Origin: a virus
Length of the DNA: 35,850 nucleotides
Virus record (IMG/VR): IMGVR_UViG_3300032116_000675
Location: 1 to 35,850 of that record
Strand: one strand, 5' to 3'
Made by a program: the position numbers and the translations under genes
Shown: positions 1,139-33,316 of the stretch, one piece after another
Numbering within the stretch: position 1 is the stretch's first letter
How the letters are laid out: each line of letters opens with the position of its first letter
Notes under the pieces: generated by a model
The model's input: only the letters and a program-made list of their open reading frames with translations
Databases searched by the model: none
Told to the model about the DNA's origin: nothing

Positions 1139-1188
1139 TTCTGTTACAGTTCCGTTTAAGGATCATGATTTCATAGATAAGTGTGATA

Positions 1189-1204
1189 TTGTGCATTTGC
1201 ACAA
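1189..1204. repeat. Inverted repeat in the pstS leader
   Basis: TTGTGC-ATTT-GCACAA is a perfect 6-bp stem with a 4-base loop, ending 7 bases before the AGGAGA ribosome-binding site of pstS. There is no U-tract, so it is not a terminator. It could be an operator or a 5' mRNA stabiliser. Confidence 0.5.
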
Positions 1205-1221
1205 TTCTTATAGGAGAAATC

Positions 1222-2244
1222 ATGAGAAATTTACTTTTATCTTTATTACTATTCACAGGAGTCGCATCAGCAGCAGAATTTACTGGAGCCGGTGCGACTT
1301 TTCCATTTCCAATCTATGCAAAGTGGGCTGAAGCATACAAAGCACAAACTGGCATTGGTCTAAACTATCAATCAATTGGTTCAGGTGGTGGTATTCGTCA
1401 AATCAAAGCCAAGACAGTTGACTTTGGTGCAAGTGATATGCCACTTAAGAAAGAAGAATTAGACAAAGAAGGTCTTGTTCAGTTCCCAGCCATCATTGGT
1501 GGTGTTGTACCAGTTTACAATCTTGACGGTATCGATGCAGGTAAACTAAAGTTGACACCTGATGTAATTGCAAACATTCATTTAGGTAAAATCACCAAAT
1601 GGAACGACAAAGCAATTGCAGAATTAAATCCTGGTGTAAATCTACCTGCAATGAACATCACAGTCGTTCATCGTGCAGATGGTTCAGGCACTACATTTAT
1701 CTGGACAAACTTTTTGGGCAAAGCCAATGCAGATTTTCAAAAGACTGTAGGTGAAGGCACAGCAGTTAAATGGCCAGTAGGTGTAGGTGGTAAAGGTAAC
1801 GAAGGTGTAGCAGCACAAGTACAAAGACTAAAAGGTGCATTTGGTTATGTTGAATATGCATACGCAAAGCGTAATAAAATTCCTTATGCAGCATTAAAGA
1901 ATCGTGATGGTAATTTTGTGCTGCCTGATGATACTACATTCAAGGCAGCAGCCGCAAATGCAGACTGGGTAAATGCACCGGGCATGTATTTGTTACTCAC
2001 ATGGCAGACAGGTAAAGATGCATGGCCAGCAACAGGTGCAAGTTTCATTCTCATGCACAAGCAACAGGCAGACGCATTGACAGGTCGTGCAGTTCTCAAG
2101 TTCTTTGATTGGAGTTATAAGAACGGTGGTCAAATGTCAACAGAGTTGGAGTATGTTCACATGCCACAAGATGTAATTAAATTAGTTCAGGACAATTGGA
2201 AGAAAGACTTCCGTGGCCCAGACAACAACCCAATTTGGAAATAA
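1222..2244 (+). CDS. pstS: Phosphate ABC transporter substrate-binding protein PstS (periplasmic)
   Basis: 340 residues from the ATG at 1222. This start is preferred over the ATG at 1183 because AGGAGA lies at 1212-1217 and the product begins directly with a Sec signal peptide (MRNLLLSLLLFTGVASA, cleavage before A-E-F). Phosphate-binding loops of the family are visible: G-A-T-F (24-27), G-S-G-G-G (53-57), V-D-F-G-A-S-D (66-72) and R-A-D-G-S-G-T-T (151-158). The protein delivers periplasmic phosphate to the host PstCAB permease; no phage pstCAB is seen, so it must use host partners. The porin gene starts 6 bases downstream, so the two form one transcription unit closed by the terminator at 3677. 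It is a known type of phage auxiliary metabolic gene. Confidence 0.95.
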   Translation: MRNLLLSLLLFTGVASAAEFTGAGATFPFPIYAKWAEAYKAQTGIGLNYQSIGSGGGIRQIKAKTVDFGASDMPLKKEELDKEGLVQFPAIIGGVVPVYNLDGIDAGKLKLTPDVIANIHLGKITKWNDKAIAELNPGVNLPAMNITVVHRADGSGTTFIWTNFLGKANADFQKTVGEGTAVKWPVGVGGKGNEGVAAQVQRLKGAFGYVEYAYAKRNKIPYAALKNRDGNFVLPDDTTFKAAAANADWVNAPGMYLLLTWQTGKDAWPATGASFILMHKQQADALTGRAVLKFFDWSYKNGGQMSTELEYVHMPQDVIKLVQDNWKKDFRGPDNNPIWK

Positions 2245-2250
2245 GGATAA

Positions 2251-3660
2251 ATGATGAAATTATTAAAGAAACTTTCTATTGTAGTTGCACTAGCAGCCGT
2301 AATTCCTGCATATGCTGATGAGTATAAAGAGACATTGAATATTCTAAGAGAGAAGAATGTAATCACTCAAAAAGAATATGAAGCAAAACTCAAAGCATAT
2401 GAAGAAAGAGAAGAAAACAAAAAGTTCATTGAACAAAGAATTGACAAAGACGTTAGTGAATCTGTCAAATACAGACAAGCCAGAGCAAACGATGGTTCAG
2501 TCACAGAAAATGGAATCGGACTCAAATCAAAAGATGGTAACAACACCATCCAATTTACAGGTCGATTACATATGGACTATCGAAACTACACACCAAATTA
2601 TGGTGTCGGTCAAACCACGGATTCGTATCAAAACTTAGCAGAGATGCGCCGTGGTAGATTTGGTATTCGTGGACAATTTGCAAAAGACTTCAAGTATGAA
2701 TTTTCCGGTAATTTTGGTAATGATGTTGGTGCCGCTTCTTCAACAACCACAATGGATGTTGCATGGGTAAACTACGCAGCCAATCCAGAACTACAATATC
2801 AATTTGGTTTGTTTAAGATGCCATTCAGTCTTGAGCAACTGCAAAGTTCCAACAATCTTGATATGATGGATCGTAGTTTAGTTGGTCAAGTTGAAGGTGA
2901 ATTTATTCCAGGTAAAGAAACTGGTTTTATGATTCATGGTGTACCAAAACCCGGTTTGACATACGCCATTGCAGCAAGTCGTGGTCGTGCTAACAAAGAC
3001 GCCGTATCAGATGGATTTGATTACATCGGTCGTGTTACTACAAACATTGCTGAATTGCAAGGTAGCAAAGCATACACACTACACTTAGGTGCTGCATATA
3101 GTATAGGTGAGATTAAAGGTGGTGTTGCACCAGCAAGTGGTAGAACAGAGGCACGTTCACAAAATGCTTGGTTCACCGGTTCGGCACTGAGTGGTGTAAC
3201 CGAAAGAACTCGTCAAGGTCTTGAAGCAGCATTTGCATATAATGCTTTGAAAGTACAAGCAGAACAATTTAATTTCATATATGATCCTACAACAGGAAAC
3301 AATCAGGAAATTAAAGGCTATTATGTTCTTGCAGCATATAATCTGACTGGTGAATCATATAACTACAAAGATGGTGTGTTTGGTGCAATCAAGCCTGCTA
3401 ATCCACTAGACAAAGGCGGCAAAGGTGCTGTGCAAGTCAATGTACGTATGAGTGAGTTTGATGCTAGTAACATTACAGTAGCCACAGGTAAATCAAATCG
3501 TGCTACTGCAATGACTTATGGTCTAACTTGGTTCGCTACAGACAACCTACGTTTTATGGTTAACTATGTTGACACCAAATTTGATGCACTTGTGGGTAGT
3601 TCAGGTAGTCGTGTAAACGGCGACAAGGCCATTATGTTCAGAAGCCAACTGAACTTCTAA
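2251..3660 (+). CDS. Outer-membrane porin of the phosphate-selective OprP/OprO type
   Basis: 469 residues from ATG 2251, or 468 from the adjacent ATG 2254; an A-A-G-G-A site precedes both. A signal peptide (K-L-L-K-K-L-S-I-V-V-A-L..., cleavage after A-Y-A) is followed by a charged helical segment (about 25-70), then a beta barrel. The block R-R-G-R-F-G-I-R-G with K-Y-E-F-S-G and the later G-L-F-K-M-P-F-S-L-E are characteristic of the Porin_O_P family. The last residue is Phe after Q-L-N, the outer-membrane assembly signature. Paired with PstS it would raise phosphate passage across the outer membrane. Selectivity for phosphate over polyphosphate or other anions cannot be told from the sequence. 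Small-molecule porins are less common in phages than pstS. Confidence 0.88.
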   Translation: MMKLLKKLSIVVALAAVIPAYADEYKETLNILREKNVITQKEYEAKLKAYEEREENKKFIEQRIDKDVSESVKYRQARANDGSVTENGIGLKSKDGNNTIQFTGRLHMDYRNYTPNYGVGQTTDSYQNLAEMRRGRFGIRGQFAKDFKYEFSGNFGNDVGAASSTTTMDVAWVNYAANPELQYQFGLFKMPFSLEQLQSSNNLDMMDRSLVGQVEGEFIPGKETGFMIHGVPKPGLTYAIAASRGRANKDAVSDGFDYIGRVTTNIAELQGSKAYTLHLGAAYSIGEIKGGVAPASGRTEARSQNAWFTGSALSGVTERTRQGLEAAFAYNALKVQAEQFNFIYDPTTGNNQEIKGYYVLAAYNLTGESYNYKDGVFGAIKPANPLDKGGKGAVQVNVRMSEFDASNITVATGKSNRATAMTYGLTWFATDNLRFMVNYVDTKFDALVGSSGSRVNGDKAIMFRSQLNF

Positions 3661-8390: not shown

Positions 8391-11300
8391 TTATCCAAAC
8401 GTAGCTTCAGAACCAAAGACGGTCCATGCGCCACTTGTACGTATTAAAGTAAATGAATAGATTTCTTTTTTACTTGCTGAAGCAGTAGGTACGGTGTTAT
8501 TAAACCAGTTGATTGTTTGAGCGGCACCATCTATTTGTACAGCACTAGGATAATATGCAGTACCACCTTGTATAACAATTATAGAAACAACAATTGTTCT
8601 GTCTGCTGTTGTTGGTACATTTGTAAAGTTTGCTGTCCAGTTTGCTGAAGGACTTGTATGATAAAAAGTTGTACCATTCTGTAAATTATGTGTAACAGTA
8701 CCAGTTGCACCAGTTAATGTAGAGAGAACTTCTGTTGTTTCTGCTAAAGTAGTTACACCAGTAACAGACAAATCACCAGAAATTGTACCACCGCTGGTAG
8801 CTAATCGAGTATTCGCAGAAGCGAAAGCACCATTAGCATAACTTGATGCGGCAGTAACATTTGTTGAAGATGTGTTCGCAGTACCAAACGCCGAATTTGC
8901 GTATGATCCTGAAGTTACTGCTCTTTGATCTGCGGTATTTGCAGCACCAAATGCAGCATTAGCATAAGAACCACTTGTTACTGCTCTTTGGTCAGCCGTT
9001 GCAGCATTAGTGGTAGATGTATTGGCTGCACCATAGGCACTATTAGCATAACTTGATGCTGAACCGGCATTAGTAGTAGCAGTGTTTGCTTGACCGTATG
9101 CAGAGTTAGCATATGAACCTGATGTTACAGCTTTTTGGTCAGCTGTTGCAGCATTAGTAGTAGCAGTGTTTGTTTGAGTATATGCAGCATTAGCATATAC
9201 ACCAGAACTTACTGCTTTCTGATCAGCTGTTGCAGCATTGGTAGTTGCTGTATTTGCTTGGCCATAAGCAGAGTTAGCATAACTACCAGATGTTACAGCA
9301 CGTTGGTCTGAAGTATTAGCAACTCCAAACGCAGCATTAGCATATGTACCACTTGTTACTGCTCTTTGGTCAGCCGTTGCAGCATTGGTGATAGCAGTGT
9401 TTGCTTGACCGTATGCAGAGTTAGCATATGAACCTGATGTTACAGCTTTTTGGTCAGCTGTTGCAGCATTAGTAGTTGCTGTGTTGGCTTGTCCGTATGC
9501 AGCATTAGCATATACACCAGAACTTACTGCTTTCTGATCAGCTGTTGCAGCATTGGTAGTTGCTGTATTTGCTTGGCCATAAGCAGAGTTAGCATAACTA
9601 CCAGATGTTACAGCACGTTGGTCAGCAGTTGCAGCATTAGTGTTTGCAGTATTGGCTTGGTCATAAGCAGAGTTAGCATAATTAGATGCAGATGCGGTAT
9701 TAGCCAATGCAGTATTCGCAACACCAAATGCTGAATTAGCATAACTGGACGCAGAATTAGCAGTATCTCTAGCATATTGATCTGAACCGCTAGTTCCTGT
9801 ATTAGCAGCTGCAAAAGCAGCATTTGCATAAACACCAGCAGAAATAGAATTAACATTGGCTGTATTAGCGACACTGTAAGCTGAATTGGCATAAGAACTG
9901 GCACTTACGGCCGTTTGATTGGCGGTATTAGCTGTATTATATAATTCTTTAATTACATTCGCAGAAGTTAGATTTGCGAATGTAAGATTGCCTGAGCCGT
10001 CAGTTCTAATATAATCATCATTTAAACCACCAGTAATGTGTACATTTCCAATTGGTCCCAACAGAACACTTTTTGCAATACTGGTATCTAAGTTTGCACG
10101 TATATTAACTGTGTTACTCGAAGCAATGACACGAATTTGTTCATTTTCATTATTCATGCCGCCAGTAGCAATCACAACATCATTTTCAATTAATGTGCCA
10201 ATTATTAAACTACCGCCGCCCGTTGTTGTATTTCCTGATACATACAGGTAACCATCATTTGGTCCAACTAAAGTATAATCTGGATCATTATGTGTGCTTG
10301 AGCCGATACCCATATCAATATAAGTATCGTTTTCTGTACCATTGTCAGCAGTTGCAACATAATCTGAAGATGCATTACTTCCAAAGTTAATGTTTTGAAT
10401 GTTTATTTGCGAGTAACTATCTTCGTTTGTCGATGCTTGAAAAACTGTGTGTGGCTGATAATCATATCCAACAGGAATACCGGCATATAATGCGTTATGC
10501 CCATTCGCTTCACCAAAAAATTGGCCACTATTACCTGTAACTTGTAAAGATGTAACATTTCCTACAAAACTAACATTACCCAAAACAGTAAGGTCATTTT
10601 GAACTGTTACATTACCAGTTATTGTACCACCAGATGAATTAAATTTAGTGTTAGCTAATGTATACGCAGAGTTGGCATAAGAGCCAGAAGTTACAGCTCT
10701 TTGATCAGCGGTGTTAGCACCAGCAAAAGCGGCATTAGCATATGTGCCAGCACTTACTGATTTCTGGTCTGCGGTATTAGCCGAAGCAAATCCAGAATTG
10801 GCATAACTGGATGCTGAGTTAGCCACATCAAAAGAACTGTTAGCATATACACCAGATGTTACAGCTTTTTGATCAGCAGTGTTAGCACCAGCAAAAGCGG
10901 CATTAGCATAAACACTAGCACTAACAATATTTGCGTCTAATATAGGTATAGAACTTAGGATGGAGTTTATATTAAGATTAGCAATATTCGCAACACCAAA
11001 TGCTGAGTTAGCATAAGAACCACTTGTTACTGCTCTTTGGTCTGCTGTTGCAGCATTGGTAGTAGCAGTATTTGCCTGATCATAAGCACTATTAGTATTA
11101 ACCAATGTAGTATTAGCAACACCAAATGCTGAGTTAGCATAACTAGAAGCAGATACAGTATTAGATAATGCGGTATTAGCAACATCGTAAGCTGAATTGG
11201 CATAACTGCCACTAATTATAGCTTTTTGATCAGCTGTTGCAGCATTAGTAGTTGCTGTGTTAGCTTGGCCATATGCTGAATTGGCATAACTGGAGGCCGA

Positions 11301-13364
11301 ATTAGCAGCATTTCTTACCCACGTATCAGTGGCATTATTGGCAGTTTCAAATGCAGCATTAGCATATACACCAGAACTAATGGCTTTTTGATCAGCAGTA
11401 GCAGCATTGGTGTTGGCGGTGTTTGCTTGTAAATATGCTGAGTTAGCATAAGAGCCACTTGTTATTGCTCTTTGGTCAGATGTAATCGCATTGGTGTTGG
11501 CAATGTTTGCTTGTAAATATGCTGAATTAGCATAGTCACCAGAAGTAACAGCTCTTTGATCAACAACTGCAATATTCGTATTTGCTGTGTTTGCTTGTAA
11601 ATATGCTGAATTAGCATACGAACTCGCCATAGTAGCTTTACTATCAGAAGTATTGGCTGTAGAGAAAGAACTGTTAGCATAGTCACCAGAAGTAACAGCT
11701 CTTTGATCTGCTGTTGCAGCATTGGTAGTTGCTGTATTAGCTTGACTGTATCCACTATTGGCATAACTACTTGCACTATTTGATGCATCTCTTGCCCAAC
11801 TATCTGTAATTCCACTGTTTGCAACAGCAAATGCAGCATTAGCATATACACCAGCAGAAATAGAATTAATATTTGCTGTATTAGCCACAGAAAATCCAGA
11901 ATTAGCATAATCACCAGAAGTTACTGCCTTTTGATCTGCCGTATTCGCAACAACAAAAGCACTATTTGCATATGAACTAGCTGCGTTAGCTGTATTTCTA
12001 GCTAAAGTGTCTGATGATCCTGTATTTGCTGCAGCATAAGCAGCATTAGCATATACACCAGCAGAAATAGAGTTATTGTTTGCTGTATTGGCTAGACTAT
12101 AAGCACTATTTGCATATGAACCGGATGTTAATGCTTTTTGGTCTGCTGTGGAGGCATCTGTTAATGCTGTATTTGATATACCAAATGCTGAGTTTGCGTA
12201 ATCACCACTTGTTACTGCTTTCTGATCAGCTGTTGCAGCATTTGTTGTTGCAGTATTTGCTTGACTGTAAGCAGCATTGGCATATGAACTGCCAGAGTTA
12301 GCTGTACCAAATGCTGAATTCGTATGATCTACAGGATCATATCCTCTAACTCTAATTGTATCGGTTACTATATTGGCCGTAAGATTTGCAATACTGAAAC
12401 TTGAGTTAGCGATATCGATAACATTATTTGGTGAAGATGTATCGAAACTGGGATCTTCGTAGTTATAAAACAAATAATATTTACCATCTGTAGCATCTCG
12501 GAAAAGACCAGTATGTTTTCTGGTGACACCAGCATCTGGACTATAGTGACCAAAGAAACCCATATCTAAAGTATCAGAAGTTTCATTATTTGCAGCTAGT
12601 TGAATTAATGGATCATCAATTTTAATATCCGAAACTGATATTGTTGTGGCGTTTCCAGATACTATCAAATTACCAGTGATATTTAAATCTCCAGATATTG
12701 TACCACCAGTCAAATTTAATTTACTATTTGCAGTACTGTAAGATGAATTTGCATAAGAACTGGCAGAGTTCGCTACACTAAAGGCTGAATTGGAATAACT
12801 TGAAATAGATAATGTATTGCTTGATGCGGAATTTGCTACACCAAAAGAAGTATTAGCATAGTCACCAGAAGTTACTGCTCTTTGATCCGCTGTAGCTGCA
12901 TTGGTCGTTGCAGTATTTGCTTCATTATAAGCACTATTAGCGTAAGAACTAGCACTACTGGAATTGTCAATAGAAGTATTAGCTTGTGCATAAGCTGAAT
13001 TAGCATACGATCCACTAGTTACTGATTTTTGATCAACAGTATTAGCCGCAGCAAATGCAGAATTAGCATAAACACCAGCACTATTCGCTGTATTTCTAGC
13101 TAAAGTATCTGGTGATCCTGTGTTGGCTGCAGCGTAAGCGGCATTAGCATATACACCAGAACTATTCGCAGTATTTCTAGCATATGCATCTATTGGATCT
13201 GTTACAGCTGTATTCGCCGCAGCAAATGCAGAATTAGCATATGACGCCGCAGAGTTAGCCGCAGCAAAAGCAGAAGATATGTTTGCTGCAATCGATGGAC
13301 TTAAATCAGATTGTTGAATCGTTCCTGGTTGAATTAGACCATCTGTTAGTTGTGTTAATGGCAT
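8391..13364 (-). CDS. Giant repetitive tail fibre protein
   Basis: 1657 residues. The N-terminus (M-P-L-T-Q-L-T-D-G-L-I-Q-P-G-T-I) is a virion-anchor-like module also present at 16542. Most of the protein is Ala/Asn/Ser/Thr-rich repeats of the form S-Y-A-N-S-A-Y-x-x-A-N-T with or without the insert A-T-T-N-A-A-T-A-D-Q-K-A-V-T-S-G. Repeat periods are 21 or 28 residues, multiples of seven, as for a trimeric coiled coil. Two unique insertions interrupt it: about residues 221-341 (G-G-T-I-S-G-D-L-N-I-T-G then F-F-G-H-Y-S) and about 905-1141 (G-G-T-I-T-G-N-V-T-V). Residues from about 1521 form a C-terminal globular head ending F-G-S-E-A-T-F-G. It is probably the long fibre shaft; attachment of the tip proteins encoded next is inferred. 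Confidence 0.88.
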   Translation of the reverse strand: MPLTQLTDGLIQPGTIQQSDLSPSIAANISSAFAAANSAASYANSAFAAANTAVTDPIDAYARNTANSSGVYANAAYAAANTGSPDTLARNTANSAGVYANSAFAAANTVDQKSVTSGSYANSAYAQANTSIDNSSSASSYANSAYNEANTATTNAATADQRAVTSGDYANTSFGVANSASSNTLSISSYSNSAFSVANSASSYANSSYSTANSKLNLTGGTISGDLNITGNLIVSGNATTISVSDIKIDDPLIQLAANNETSDTLDMGFFGHYSPDAGVTRKHTGLFRDATDGKYYLFYNYEDPSFDTSSPNNVIDIANSSFSIANLTANIVTDTIRVRGYDPVDHTNSAFGTANSGSSYANAAYSQANTATTNAATADQKAVTSGDYANSAFGISNTALTDASTADQKALTSGSYANSAYSLANTANNNSISAGVYANAAYAAANTGSSDTLARNTANAASSYANSAFVVANTADQKAVTSGDYANSGFSVANTANINSISAGVYANAAFAVANSGITDSWARDASNSASSYANSGYSQANTATTNAATADQRAVTSGDYANSSFSTANTSDSKATMASSYANSAYLQANTANTNIAVVDQRAVTSGDYANSAYLQANIANTNAITSDQRAITSGSYANSAYLQANTANTNAATADQKAISSGVYANAAFETANNATDTWVRNAANSASSYANSAYGQANTATTNAATADQKAIISGSYANSAYDVANTALSNTVSASSYANSAFGVANTTLVNTNSAYDQANTATTNAATADQRAVTSGSYANSAFGVANIANLNINSILSSIPILDANIVSASVYANAAFAGANTADQKAVTSGVYANSSFDVANSASSYANSGFASANTADQKSVSAGTYANAAFAGANTADQRAVTSGSYANSAYTLANTKFNSSGGTITGNVTVQNDLTVLGNVSFVGNVTSLQVTGNSGQFFGEANGHNALYAGIPVGYDYQPHTVFQASTNEDSYSQINIQNINFGSNASSDYVATADNGTENDTYIDMGIGSSTHNDPDYTLVGPNDGYLYVSGNTTTGGGSLIIGTLIENDVVIATGGMNNENEQIRVIASSNTVNIRANLDTSIAKSVLLGPIGNVHITGGLNDDYIRTDGSGNLTFANLTSANVIKELYNTANTANQTAVSASSYANSAYSVANTANVNSISAGVYANAAFAAANTGTSGSDQYARDTANSASSYANSAFGVANTALANTASASNYANSAYDQANTANTNAATADQRAVTSGSYANSAYGQANTATTNAATADQKAVSSGVYANAAYGQANTATTNAATADQKAVTSGSYANSAYGQANTAITNAATADQRAVTSGTYANAAFGVANTSDQRAVTSGSYANSAYGQANTATTNAATADQKAVSSGVYANAAYTQTNTATTNAATADQKAVTSGSYANSAYGQANTATTNAGSASSYANSAYGAANTSTTNAATADQRAVTSGSYANAAFGAANTADQRAVTSGSYANSAFGTANTSSTNVTAASSYANGAFASANTRLATSGGTISGDLSVTGVTTLAETTEVLSTLTGATGTVTHNLQNGTTFYHTSPSANWTANFTNVPTTADRTIVVSIIVIQGGTAYYPSAVQIDGAAQTINWFNNTVPTASASKKEIYSFTLIRTSGAWTVFGSEATFG
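9075..9623 (-). repeat. Near-identical internal duplication in the fibre gene
   Basis: The block 9075-9308 recurs at 9390-9623 with an offset of exactly 315 bp, which is 105 codons or 15 heptads. Long stretches are identical (for example around 9101-9165 and 9416-9480), and differences are clustered near 9167-9195. The identity is much higher than between other repeat units, pointing to a recent duplication or gene conversion that kept the coiled-coil register. Confidence 0.8.
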
Positions 13365-20254: not shown

Positions 20255-20682
20255 TTTACTATGACGATGAACGAGAATATAGTGAAATTGTCGAACAATG
20301 GATTCGAGATTTCATTGCAACAATGGATGAAGGCACATTAGAGGCCGGTGACGATTCCGGTGAAGCACCATTTGGTGTGAAAATCATTTTTGATGGGTAT
20401 GGTTATGATGAAGAAAATGATTTAGAAAATAATGATACAAACACAATGTCGTTTGCGGTATTCATACACAAAAATTCATTGACGGAGGAATTTCCACCGC
20501 ATGAATTGACACCGTGGGCTCTGATTCATCGACCAAAAGAAGAAGTTTGTATTTGGGCTTGGTATGATGTAAATGCTGATGTTGTTGAAATCATACCGTT
20601 TGAAGATAATAATTCTACAGAGTTGGATCCACAATTCGTTACTGATTTGATTTTTAAAATTTATGCGAGAGAATTAGAATGA
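20251..20682 (+). CDS. Hypothetical acidic protein, 143 residues
   Basis: Strongly acidic (D-D-E-R-E-Y-S-E-I-V-E-Q-W; D-E-E-N-D-L-E-N-N-D) with a conserved-looking aromatic centre (L-T-P-W-A-L-I-H-R-P-K-E-E-V-C-I-W-A-W). No signal peptide or catalytic motif is visible. The low isoelectric point could suit a DNA mimic, but that is only a possibility. Coupled by ATGA to both neighbours. Confidence 0.65.
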   Translation: MIYYDDEREYSEIVEQWIRDFIATMDEGTLEAGDDSGEAPFGVKIIFDGYGYDEENDLENNDTNTMSFAVFIHKNSLTEEFPPHELTPWALIHRPKEEVCIWAWYDVNADVVEIIPFEDNNSTELDPQFVTDLIFKIYARELE

Positions 20683-21392
20683 GAAATAATTTCTTTGAAA
20701 TCACTTGGTCAGATTATAATTTCTGGCATATGTATTTTGTATGGCCTACAGAAAATAGTGAGGACAAATATTTAAAAATTTCATTTGGTTTTTGGAAATT
20801 CTTTGCAAGTATTGGACTATGGCCAACAAAAGGTGTCGGAGATTTTTCTTCAATTATGGGACCAAAATATGGATTCTCATATAGTGATGGTGTTTTGTTT
20901 ATCTTTAAAGGCCTCGATAAGTACACAGCGATTGATATGCCGTGGCGTTGGCAAATTGTTCGCCATGACCTTTTGCTACCTAATGGTAGTGTATATGAAA
21001 GCAATCGTTGGGATTATTATGGCAAAGAAATTGGTAAACATTACCAATGGCATCAAATTCTAGAAGGCTGGCACGATCCAAATATTCGAAAGAGTTTATT
21101 AGATCGTTGTACTCGAACAGTAGAATTGGATCATTATACAAAAGATGGCAGAAATCAAAAAGCGACTATCGCACTCACCGGCGAAGAAAGAGAATGGCGT
21201 TGGTTATGGTTTACATGGTTGCCAATATTCAATAAAGTTGAAAGGGTCGTTTCATGTGATTCAGATATTGAATTAGGCAAAAAAGCAGGAACATGGAAAG
21301 GCGGCATGATGGGTTGGAGTTGTGAGTGGTTATTAAATGAAAGTATGGAAGGAGCATTTTGGAGATGGTATGATAAGTGGGATGGCAATTAA
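20679..21392 (+). CDS. Tryptophan-rich phage protein, 237 residues
   Basis: Very rich in Trp and Tyr (F-W-H-M-Y-F-V-W-P; W-R-W-Q-I-V; R-E-W-R-W-L-W-F-T-W-L-P-I-F; F-W-R-W-Y-D-K-W). The segment W-K-G-G-M-M-G-W-S-C-E-W near the end is distinctive. I recall similar proteins of unknown function in other large phages. It has no signal peptide. It is the last gene of the operon starting at 18342; a new promoter follows. Confidence 0.7.
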   Translation: MRNNFFEITWSDYNFWHMYFVWPTENSEDKYLKISFGFWKFFASIGLWPTKGVGDFSSIMGPKYGFSYSDGVLFIFKGLDKYTAIDMPWRWQIVRHDLLLPNGSVYESNRWDYYGKEIGKHYQWHQILEGWHDPNIRKSLLDRCTRTVELDHYTKDGRNQKATIALTGEEREWRWLWFTWLPIFNKVERVVSCDSDIELGKKAGTWKGGMMGWSCEWLLNESMEGAFWRWYDKWDGN

Positions 21393-22862: not shown

Positions 22863-23008
22863 GTGATACAAAATTCATGGAAGAATACACTGAGATGATA
22901 ATTGAAGAATGTCGTAAGGCTTTGCATCCTGAGCTTCGTGATATGATATCTCGCGGTCAAGCATTTGATTTAATCAAAAAACATTTTGGTATAAAAGAAG
23001 ATGAATGA
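22859..23008 (+). CDS. Member 1 of the (F/Y)-x-E-x-I-I-x-E-C / K-H-F-G paralogous family
   Basis: 49 residues. The core Y-T-E-M-I-I-E-E-C-R is followed by I-K-K-H-F-G-I-K-E at the end. This two-part pattern recurs in six more proteins of this operon. It is the shortest copy, lacking the N-terminal extension of the others. ATGA overlaps on both sides. Confidence 0.68.
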   Translation: MSDTKFMEEYTEMIIEECRKALHPELRDMISRGQAFDLIKKHFGIKEDE

Positions 23009-23655
23009 GTTTTAGAATTTTAATTATGGGATTGCCTGGCTCAGGTAAAACTTATTTAGCCAATGAATTGCAGGAGCAATTACATAAAAAAGGATTTTCA
23101 GTTGAGTGGTTTAATGCTGATGAAATAAGAGAACGATTTAATGATTGGGATTTTTCTGAAGAAGGTAGAATCAGGCAAAGCTCTAGAATGAAAGAACTAT
23201 CAGAAAAATCTTCAGCTAATTTTGTTATCTGCGATTTTGTTGCTCCACTACCTAAAATGCGAGAAGTTTTTTCTGCTGATATGACCATATGGTTAGACAC
23301 AATTGATGAGAGTCGATTTGAAGATACGAATAAAATATTCGTAAGTCCAGAAAAATATGATTATAGAATTATGGCTAAATCGGCTAAAAGGTGGGCTTCT
23401 GTAATATCAGATAAACTAGAATCTAATTTTTATGAGTCTGAAGAAAAACAGTATAGAAGTTTAACTAAAGCCATTACTTGGCGAGTAACAGGTACTTTAG
23501 ATACATTCATCGTAAGTCTTTTATTGACAGGTGAACCTAAGATAGCAATGAGTATTGCTAGTGTGGAATTTTTTACTAAAATTATTTTATATTATTTTCA
23601 CGAAAGAGTGTGGAATAAAATTTCATGGGGTAGAGATGTCCAAAAAAGTATTTGA
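23005..23655 (+). CDS. APS-kinase-like P-loop kinase fused to a DUF2061 membrane domain
   Basis: 216 residues. The N-terminal domain (1-about 145) has Walker A G-L-P-G-S-G-K-T (9-16), the CysC-like F-N-A-D-E-I-R (with N-A-D in place of D-G-D), N-D-W-D-F-S and G-R-I-R-Q-S-S-R-M. From about 151, Y-R-S-L-T-K-A-I-T-W-R-V-T-G-T and F-F-T-K-I-I-L-Y-Y-F-H-E-R-V-W form the two-helix DUF2061 signature, which should anchor it to the membrane. Adenylylsulfate kinases make PAPS, but the active-site change and the next gene (a nucleotidyltransferase rather than a full ATP sulfurylase) leave the true substrate open. Confidence 0.8.
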   Translation: MSFRILIMGLPGSGKTYLANELQEQLHKKGFSVEWFNADEIRERFNDWDFSEEGRIRQSSRMKELSEKSSANFVICDFVAPLPKMREVFSADMTIWLDTIDESRFEDTNKIFVSPEKYDYRIMAKSAKRWASVISDKLESNFYESEEKQYRSLTKAITWRVTGTLDTFIVSLLLTGEPKIAMSIASVEFFTKIILYYFHERVWNKISWGRDVQKSI

Positions 23656-32175: not shown

Positions 32176-32331
32176 ATGATCGAAAAAATCAGAACCATTA
32201 CAGACCGACACCCCATTAAAAACTATCCATTCTCCAGAGATGGTGAGGCTTACCATTGTACCCTCTGCCATAAAGTCTGGTTAAAAGAAAAACAAGCCAA
32301 AGAACACGATTGTAAACCTATTGAGAAGTGA
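32176..32331 (+). CDS. 51-residue zinc-finger-like protein
   Basis: C28-T-L-C31 and H43-x-x-C46 (K-E-H-D-C-K-P) form a C2HC zinc site after a basic N-terminus (I-E-K-I-R-T-I-T-D-R-H). The last codons contain the first copy of the 22-bp-spaced repeat. Possibly a DNA- or RNA-binding factor that could act on the repeat itself. Confidence 0.65.
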   Translation: MIEKIRTITDRHPIKNYPFSRDGEAYHCTLCHKVWLKEKQAKEHDCKPIEK

Positions 32332-32364
32332 TTGTAAACTTAAAATGAAAGCATTGTAAACTTA
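32309..32364 (+). repeat. Three 12-bp direct repeats at 22-bp spacing
   Basis: ATTGTAAACCTA at 32309, ATTGTAAACTTA at 32331 and ATTGTAAACTTA at 32353. The spacing is exactly 22 bp each time, two turns of B-DNA, so the copies lie on one face of the helix. The first is inside the preceding gene's 3' end and the last reaches the start codon of the next gene. They may be operator or iteron-like sites, or a remnant of tandem duplication. See findings. Confidence 0.8.
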
Positions 32365-32609
32365 TGAACCTTTATATTGGTGATTATTGGGTACCGTTTC
32401 CACGTTCAGAATATGGTGGTACGTGGGTTGTCATGGCGGAAAATGGTGGACAAGTCATTGACATTCTCAAAGAAACCTGTTATGATGATGAATATGAACA
32501 TTTAATTCCAGAGGCTGTTTCGAATGCCAAAGTATTCCCTCTGGATAAAAATGAACTATTCCGTGTGGCCTCAAATAAACCCCAATTGATTGAAAAATTC
32601 TATACATGA
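32364..32609 (+). CDS. Hypothetical 81-residue protein
   Basis: M-N-L-Y-I-G-D-Y-W-V-P-F-P-R-S-E-Y-G-G-T then V-I-D-I-L-K-E-T and a terminal helix. The start codon overlaps the third repeat of the 22-bp array, and no Shine-Dalgarno is visible. Overlaps the next gene by 4 bases. Confidence 0.68.
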   Translation: MNLYIGDYWVPFPRSEYGGTWVVMAENGGQVIDILKETCYDDEYEHLIPEAVSNAKVFPLDKNELFRVASNKPQLIEKFYT

Positions 32610-32875
32610 CCAAAAATTATGAATGGCGTGAACGAAACGCCAAGTGGTACTACTACGATACCGAAACAGGTATGATTGTCGGCTCTACGTTTAAAGTGGC
32701 ACTACAAGAAGTCTGGGGCTCCGTGGTCAACACGGGAAGTTACGAGTTCGCTTTCAAAATGGATGATGAACGACCGCTCGGCCACTATATCGAACAGGAC
32801 TTTGCTAAGAGAGCTGTGGAAAATTATTGGGCAGTCCAAAGTCGGACTCTGTTGGAAAACAAATTCGTTGGATAG
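32606..32875 (+). CDS. Conserved phage protein, 89 residues
   Basis: Aromatic N-terminus (Y-E-W-R-E-R-N-A-K-W-Y-Y-Y-D-T-E-T-G), then I-V-G-S-T-F-K-V-A and a helix-rich end (A-K-R-A-V-E-N-Y-W). The phrase Y-D-T-E-T-G-x-I-V-G is typical of small virion or packaging-associated proteins in other phages, but the role is unknown. Confidence 0.68.
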   Translation: MTKNYEWRERNAKWYYYDTETGMIVGSTFKVALQEVWGSVVNTGSYEFAFKMDDERPLGHYIEQDFAKRAVENYWAVQSRTLLENKFVG

Positions 32876-32890
32876 CGCGGAAGCGCCGGA

Positions 32891-33316
32891 ATGGACATAA
32901 AACATAAAATTATCTGTGACTATGCAGATTCTACGAATTCTTCGGAAGATACTCTAGAGTTTCTCATACAAAATTGTAGAGATATATGTAAAGAACATTC
33001 CTTTAATACGTTTAAGGAAATGACCTTAAACTACAGAATTTGTTTCGATCAAAGAAATAAGTCTAAAATCATAAAAGACTACGAGAAGTATATTCTAACA
33101 AAAACAAAATACCATAAAAGCAATTTGGCAATCAGTTATAATATGATCGATCAAATCGGCGTAAGTGAAGAACTAGAAAAGAAAATTATAAATTTTATGT
33201 ACAGTCAAATTCAAGATAGTTACTTAGATAAGTTTCGGCAACTGGATAATGCAAAACTTAAAAAGTATATGATTATGAATTATGTTGATAAAAACATTTT
33301 GACAAGAGGTAAATAA
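32891..33316 (+). CDS. Hypothetical Lys-rich helical protein, 141 residues
   Basis: No family recognised. Strongly AT-rich codons and Lys/Asn/Ile-rich residues (N-K-S-K-I-I-K-D-Y-E-K-Y-I-L-T-K-T-K-Y) contrast with the previous gene. The start is preceded by a small GCGC-GGAA-GCGC hairpin (32875-32886). The composition suggests a later arrival. TAATG joins it to the next gene. Confidence 0.65.
   Translation: MDIKHKIICDYADSTNSSEDTLEFLIQNCRDICKEHSFNTFKEMTLNYRICFDQRNKSKIIKDYEKYILTKTKYHKSNLAISYNMIDQIGVSEELEKKIINFMYSQIQDSYLDKFRQLDNAKLKKYMIMNYVDKNILTRGK

Follow-up and report, generated by a model that had tools for sequence, protein, structure and literature searches.

The repeat array in the window

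The DNA analysed here, a 35,850-nt stretch of a viral record that we call the window, carries a short group of regularly spaced repeats directly before the start of a gene at 32364, and the question is what such a group is: an operator, a replication element, a remnant of duplication, or something else. The 12-mer ATTGTAAAC(C/T)TA is present at 32309, 32331 and 32353, with start-to-start distances of 22 and 22 bp, just as the first-pass annotation had described it. Copy 1 (32309..32320, + strand, ATTGTAAACCTA) indeed lies within the 3' end of a C2HC zinc-finger-like ORF, where it encodes HDCKP; this ORF of 50 aa (32179..32331, +) stands 5' of the array and has no Pfam or PHROG match. Copy 2 (32331..32342, +, ATTGTAAACTTA) shares its first base with the end of the TGA stop (32329-32331). 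Copy 3 (32353..32364, +, ATTGTAAACTTA) overlaps the ATG at 32364 by its final base, the A, and is preceded by the A typical of third sites. The downstream gene (32364..32609, +, 81 aa) belongs to PHROG 21741, known from T4-like cyanophages. The complete three-site array (32309..32364, +) has gaps of 22/22, and its spacers TTGAGAAGTG and AAATGAAAGC are mutually unrelated, which shows that it is not a copied 22-bp unit; this lack of relation between the 10-bp spacers is also why the array is missing from the output of Tandem Repeats Finder. The annotation had seen neither a Shine-Dalgarno nor matching promoter hexamers for the next gene. No Shine-Dalgarno precedes the ATG at 32364, in agreement with that, but promoter-like hexamers do exist on the minus strand, where a promoter scan finds TTTACA-18-TACAAT twice, built from the repeats themselves.

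A search for further copies, proposed with the annotation, was run over the whole 35,850-bp record and gives none at 0-1 mismatch. At the level of two mismatches there are 12 additional matches, and the total of 15 against 15.0 expected is what chance predicts for the record. The array is the sole 12-mer triple in the window (at most 1 mismatch, equal spacing of 13-40), and none of 30 windows simulated by an order-1 Markov model has such a triple. No motif copy is found on the minus strand near the array.

Close relatives and gene content of the window phage

The window is a piece of a large T4-like phage: its gene at 32364 has known counterparts in Synechococcus and Prochlorococcus myoviruses, and a near-identical ribonucleotide reductase is found in many IMG/VR contigs. 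The zinc-finger gene was found in a single relative, G004/L104 (214 kb; 76% aa identity), where copy 1 is kept as coding sequence. About 1 kb (32324..33314, +, from the BLASTN alignment ends), containing copies 2 and 3 together with three genes, is missing from G004, and the zinc-finger gene there runs directly into the homologue of the gene at 33316. Since this coding sequence is conserved in G004 without the array, part of the match of copy 1 in the window may be fortuitous. In addition, no repeats are found upstream of the relatives of the gene at 32364. The annotation took lack of conservation in relatives as the mark of a tandem-duplication remnant, so that by this measure the array would be a local remnant; the pattern scan described below showed the opposite.

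Several other genes in the window are worth recording. A 237-aa protein (20679-21392, +) matches the CBASS inhibitor family Acb3 (PF25187, E 5.7e-22), and its gene is likely an anti-defence gene. At 1183-3660 (+) a gene for a PstS-like phosphate-binding protein directly precedes one for a phosphate-selective porin O/P (PF07396, E 9.9e-45), which suggests a phage-carried phosphate-uptake pair. A 216-aa ORF (23005-23655, +) has an APS-kinase-like domain followed by a DUF2061 membrane domain, and a tail-fibre-like protein of 1657 aa (8391-13364, -) contains many imperfect 63/84-bp repeats.

Recurrence of the array in viral contigs

Exact pairs of the motif at 22 bp are present in unrelated viral contigs, and with the gap left free exact pairs occur only at 21 or 22 bp (or at 42, two units of 21). 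Direct pairs of the looser motif TTGTMAACYTA fall into 31 independent families. The spacing is 21 or 22 bp in 16 of these, and 20 families in all lie within spacings of 16-30, so that 16 of 20 have it there. The complement motif, a control of the same composition, gives scattered spacings, mostly codon multiples. A second peak at 31-33 bp comes partly from palindromic repeats of Bacteroidetes-type phages, which we regard as something different from the array. These are tandem palindromes GTAAAC-YTANNR-GTTTAC at 32-bp spacing in probable Bacteroidetes phages (L137, L141, L148, L149, L152, L156, L163, L165, L168, L172, L174, L178), some of them beside terminator-like hairpins and T runs. Chance may account for one motif pair, at W02:7741-7769 of Synechococcus phage DSL-LC03.

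The scan for three copies (TTGTNAAC x3, spacing 20-23 bp) yields 63 families, a count which, like the other family counts, depends on nucleotide de-duplication. Among the 24 families with divergent spacers, 22/22 is found in 10 and 22/21 in 9, against 0 of 9 for the complement control, of which long ORFs span 8. On the whole, about 30 largely independent arrays of the same layout are present in IMG/VR, nearly all with exactly three copies, and the gap order is directional, 22 first and then 22 or 21. This recurrence of 22/22(21) in many unrelated phages lends good support to the suggestion, made from the window alone, that the copies are phased on the same face of the DNA as in cooperative operators or iterons. 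It also refutes, together with the unrelated spacers of the window, the idea of a tandem-duplication remnant, though the nearest relatives lack the array.

The open-ended scan gives the core W-TTGT-M-AAC-Y-T-W. The letters at positions left open in the search are far from random: position 5 has 41% A, 54% C and 0% T, and at position 9 C and T together make up 92%, T being as frequent as C. In 32 arrays, a set in which the de-duplication threshold leaves a few related phages as separate rows, 95 of the 96 sites have A or T immediately before the core. At site 3 this base is A in 28 of 32 arrays, compared with roughly half at sites 1 and 2. Such site-specific preferences show that the three sites are not equivalent. 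The array in the window obeys every spacing and letter rule derived from the other arrays.

Several families have near-identical spacers, showing that slippage also makes such arrays. Some arrays lie inside coding sequence, either of a RecF-like gene (L293) or of a T4 gp59-like gene, where they encode DCKL repeats; the 21-bp periods of coding arrays could be explained by repeats at the protein level. The gp59-like protein of T4-like phages has a 7-residue repeat DCKL(I/M)xE, for which the ATTGTAAACTTA motif, recurring at 21 bp, supplies the codons, and which is present in two or three copies depending on the lineage (L121-L124, L127, L128, L130, L131, L135, L136, L154, L164).

No triple is present in ten isolate or named phage genomes. 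A consensus array used as BLAST query on phage records returns nothing, being too short for the method. In 257 Gb of bacterial genomes, scanned with the A-type motif ATTGTAAACYTA, there are no 22-bp pairs; the C-type triple, checked in 395 Bacteroidota genomes, has 2 matches, of which one belongs to a long tandem repeat open in one frame.

Genomic placement and carriers

Whole array-bearing records, from 27 to 170 kb, have one array each, in a single orientation and with no inverted partner array; as many viral records are fragments, one per genome here means one per record. Relative to the genes, arrays occur in both orientations. Some are located between tRNA genes (L007, L125/L129, L245, L299), where the array alone occupies one inter-tRNA gap, and others at junctions of structural or lysis genes or in the interior of the gp59-like gene. 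A role as tRNA processing spacer was rejected, as most carriers have no tRNA beside the array. In a clade of P22-like podophages (TerL about 63%, MCP 63-87% aa identity) the array is found near TerS-TerL, 5' of the portal gene, or between the scaffold and coat genes, and three arrays at these different loci have nine bases before site 3, GGGTCAACA, in common, which suggests that the unit moves. NrdR-like zinc ribbons of about 60-70 aa are encoded just 5' of TerL in aquatic P22-like podophages (L289, L166, L263, L273, G041 (L445)). No protein family is common to the carriers, the maximum being 4 of 13 records.

Weighing the explanations

The two readings offered by the annotation, operator and iteron, are borne out as to architecture. 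Taken as replication iterons, the three sites would load an origin-opening initiator, as in iteron plasmids and lambda ori. In common with the iterons of theta-replicating plasmids and lambda ori, the array has direct repeats about 22 bp apart, some two helical turns, in small number (three here) and as one array per replicon or record; it is restricted to phages, and its spacing agrees with that of iteron plasmids. However, plasmid iterons are usually conserved across the entire unit, whereas the arrays conserve 11-12 bp only, with unrelated spacers and a core that spans unrelated phages. The carriers have no initiator gene in common, no Rep-like match is seen among the window proteins tested, the locus of the array differs even between related phages, and the GC skew of the window does not switch at the array, although the skew profile itself is uninformative on replication start. 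We therefore hold an origin function to be unlikely. Local control is improbable as well: a regulator such as the neighbouring zinc-finger protein would bind the array and control the next gene, which fits the position of the array right against a start codon, as seen in the window and also in L006 and several podophages. An operator of NrdR-like zinc-ribbon genes looked promising in four podophages, where the array is directly 5' of such a small gene, but it fails in the remaining carriers, most of which lack such a zinc ribbon, and the zinc-ribbon gene of G041 has no array there. Neighbouring genes vary, and so does the orientation of the array relative to the next gene. The autoregulation by the zinc-finger protein proposed in the annotation is not supported, since G004, the nearest phage in which this gene was seen, has it without the array, the coding copy 1 being the sole repeat there, and the other carriers have no common gene.

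A further candidate is the biotin repressor BirA of the host, for which the array would be a site or a decoy. The core equals the BirA half-site TTGTMAACC, and the conserved specificity of BirA across bacteria would explain why the carriers are unrelated. BirA operators, though, consist of inverted half-sites with 14-16 bp between them, whereas the arrays are three direct sites at 21-22 bp, and because of this difference the array does not qualify as a BirA operator. The array of the window has no inverted partner, position 9 of the arrays is T as often as C, and no biotin genes are seen near arrays, which makes BirA binding very unlikely. According to PMC545781, the consensus is TTGTAAACC-N14/15-GGTTTACAA, and position 5 may also be C. 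BirA-type operators were found in 43 of 149 Bacillota genomes, and the literature, searched for the motif and variant forms of it, gives only BirA sites, in bacterial context.

A mimic of transposon ends is an idea of a different kind, in which three transposase-binding repeats would give the phage genome target immunity to a DDE/AAA+ transposon of IS21, Tn7 or Mu type. It would explain the single copy per genome and the free position and orientation, and ends of these types bear two or three direct asymmetric repeats near 22 bp, those of the IS21 family two about 22-27 bp apart; a passage of PMC11208146 cites immunity to repeated IS21 transposition as early work. Yet the IS21-family ends surveyed mismatch in the core, the repeats seen (AAAACTGACCCA type) agreeing with the motif only in GTCAA/TTGAC; three Mu-transpos_C loci lack the motif, and no transposon ending in array repeats was found. 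The array itself has no transposon tip and no second inverted end, and the ORFs around arrays, examined as listings, show no recognisable transposase, so we give this reading very little credence. Tandem antisense promoters, each pair of copies forming TTTACA-18-TACAAT on the minus strand, can point to scores of 10/12 for both matches and to some tRNA-cluster arrays so oriented. C-type arrays, however, turn the -10 into GACAAT, orientation relative to genes is inconstant, and the terminal T of the -10 is kept in 28 of 32 at site 3, which could only be a -35, against about 50% at sites 1 and 2, the would-be -10s; promoters are thus highly improbable. Simple tandem duplication helped by chance might seem to suit the missing copies 2 and 3 of the closest relatives and the identical spacers of some arrays. 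In the window the spacer was not duplicated with the repeat, and the motif recurs with its spacing in many unrelated phages with a negative control motif, leaving this explanation with hardly any probability. Finally, the stoperators of mycobacteriophages L5 and Bxb1 are many scattered single sites per genome in temperate phages; they resemble the array in being asymmetric sites of 12-13 bp in short gaps near stop and start codons, and differ from it, which is one phased triplet.

With the BirA, IS21 and minus-strand promoter readings failing, we prefer, as on balance the probable one, the reading of the array as a discrete, portable, cis-acting set of candidate protein-binding sites that is largely independent of position and neighbours. 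The triple is probably a docking site for a DNA-binding protein, because many unrelated phages carry the three-copy pattern, each of them once in its genome; protein binding, cooperativity and action in cis are what we infer from the sequence patterns. The element would comprise about 55 bp, with three direct asymmetric sites of 11-12 bp (W TTGT M AAC Y T W) on one helix face, which a sequence-specific protein probably occupies head-to-tail and cooperatively. This protein would be widely available; it may come from the host or from another mobile element, or may be too divergent to show as a common phage gene. The element would act on the phage DNA largely regardless of position and neighbouring genes. 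There is one per genome, related phages can have it at different gene junctions, and it would be tolerated wherever a stop-start or inter-tRNA gap fits it.

Meaning for phage biology

More tentatively, we may be seeing a previously unrecognised, portable and phage-specific three-site element, present in phages that have no common gene, that recruits the same kind of host or mobile-element protein across hosts, possibly as a decoy or for protection of the whole genome, for example by transposition target immunity. A fixed 55-bp architecture, present once per genome in unrelated phages yet hardly ever in bacterial chromosomes, points to a phage-host interaction that is common and escapes gene-based annotation. 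As the element is short and its consensus defined, the binding partner would be directly accessible by DNA pull-downs.
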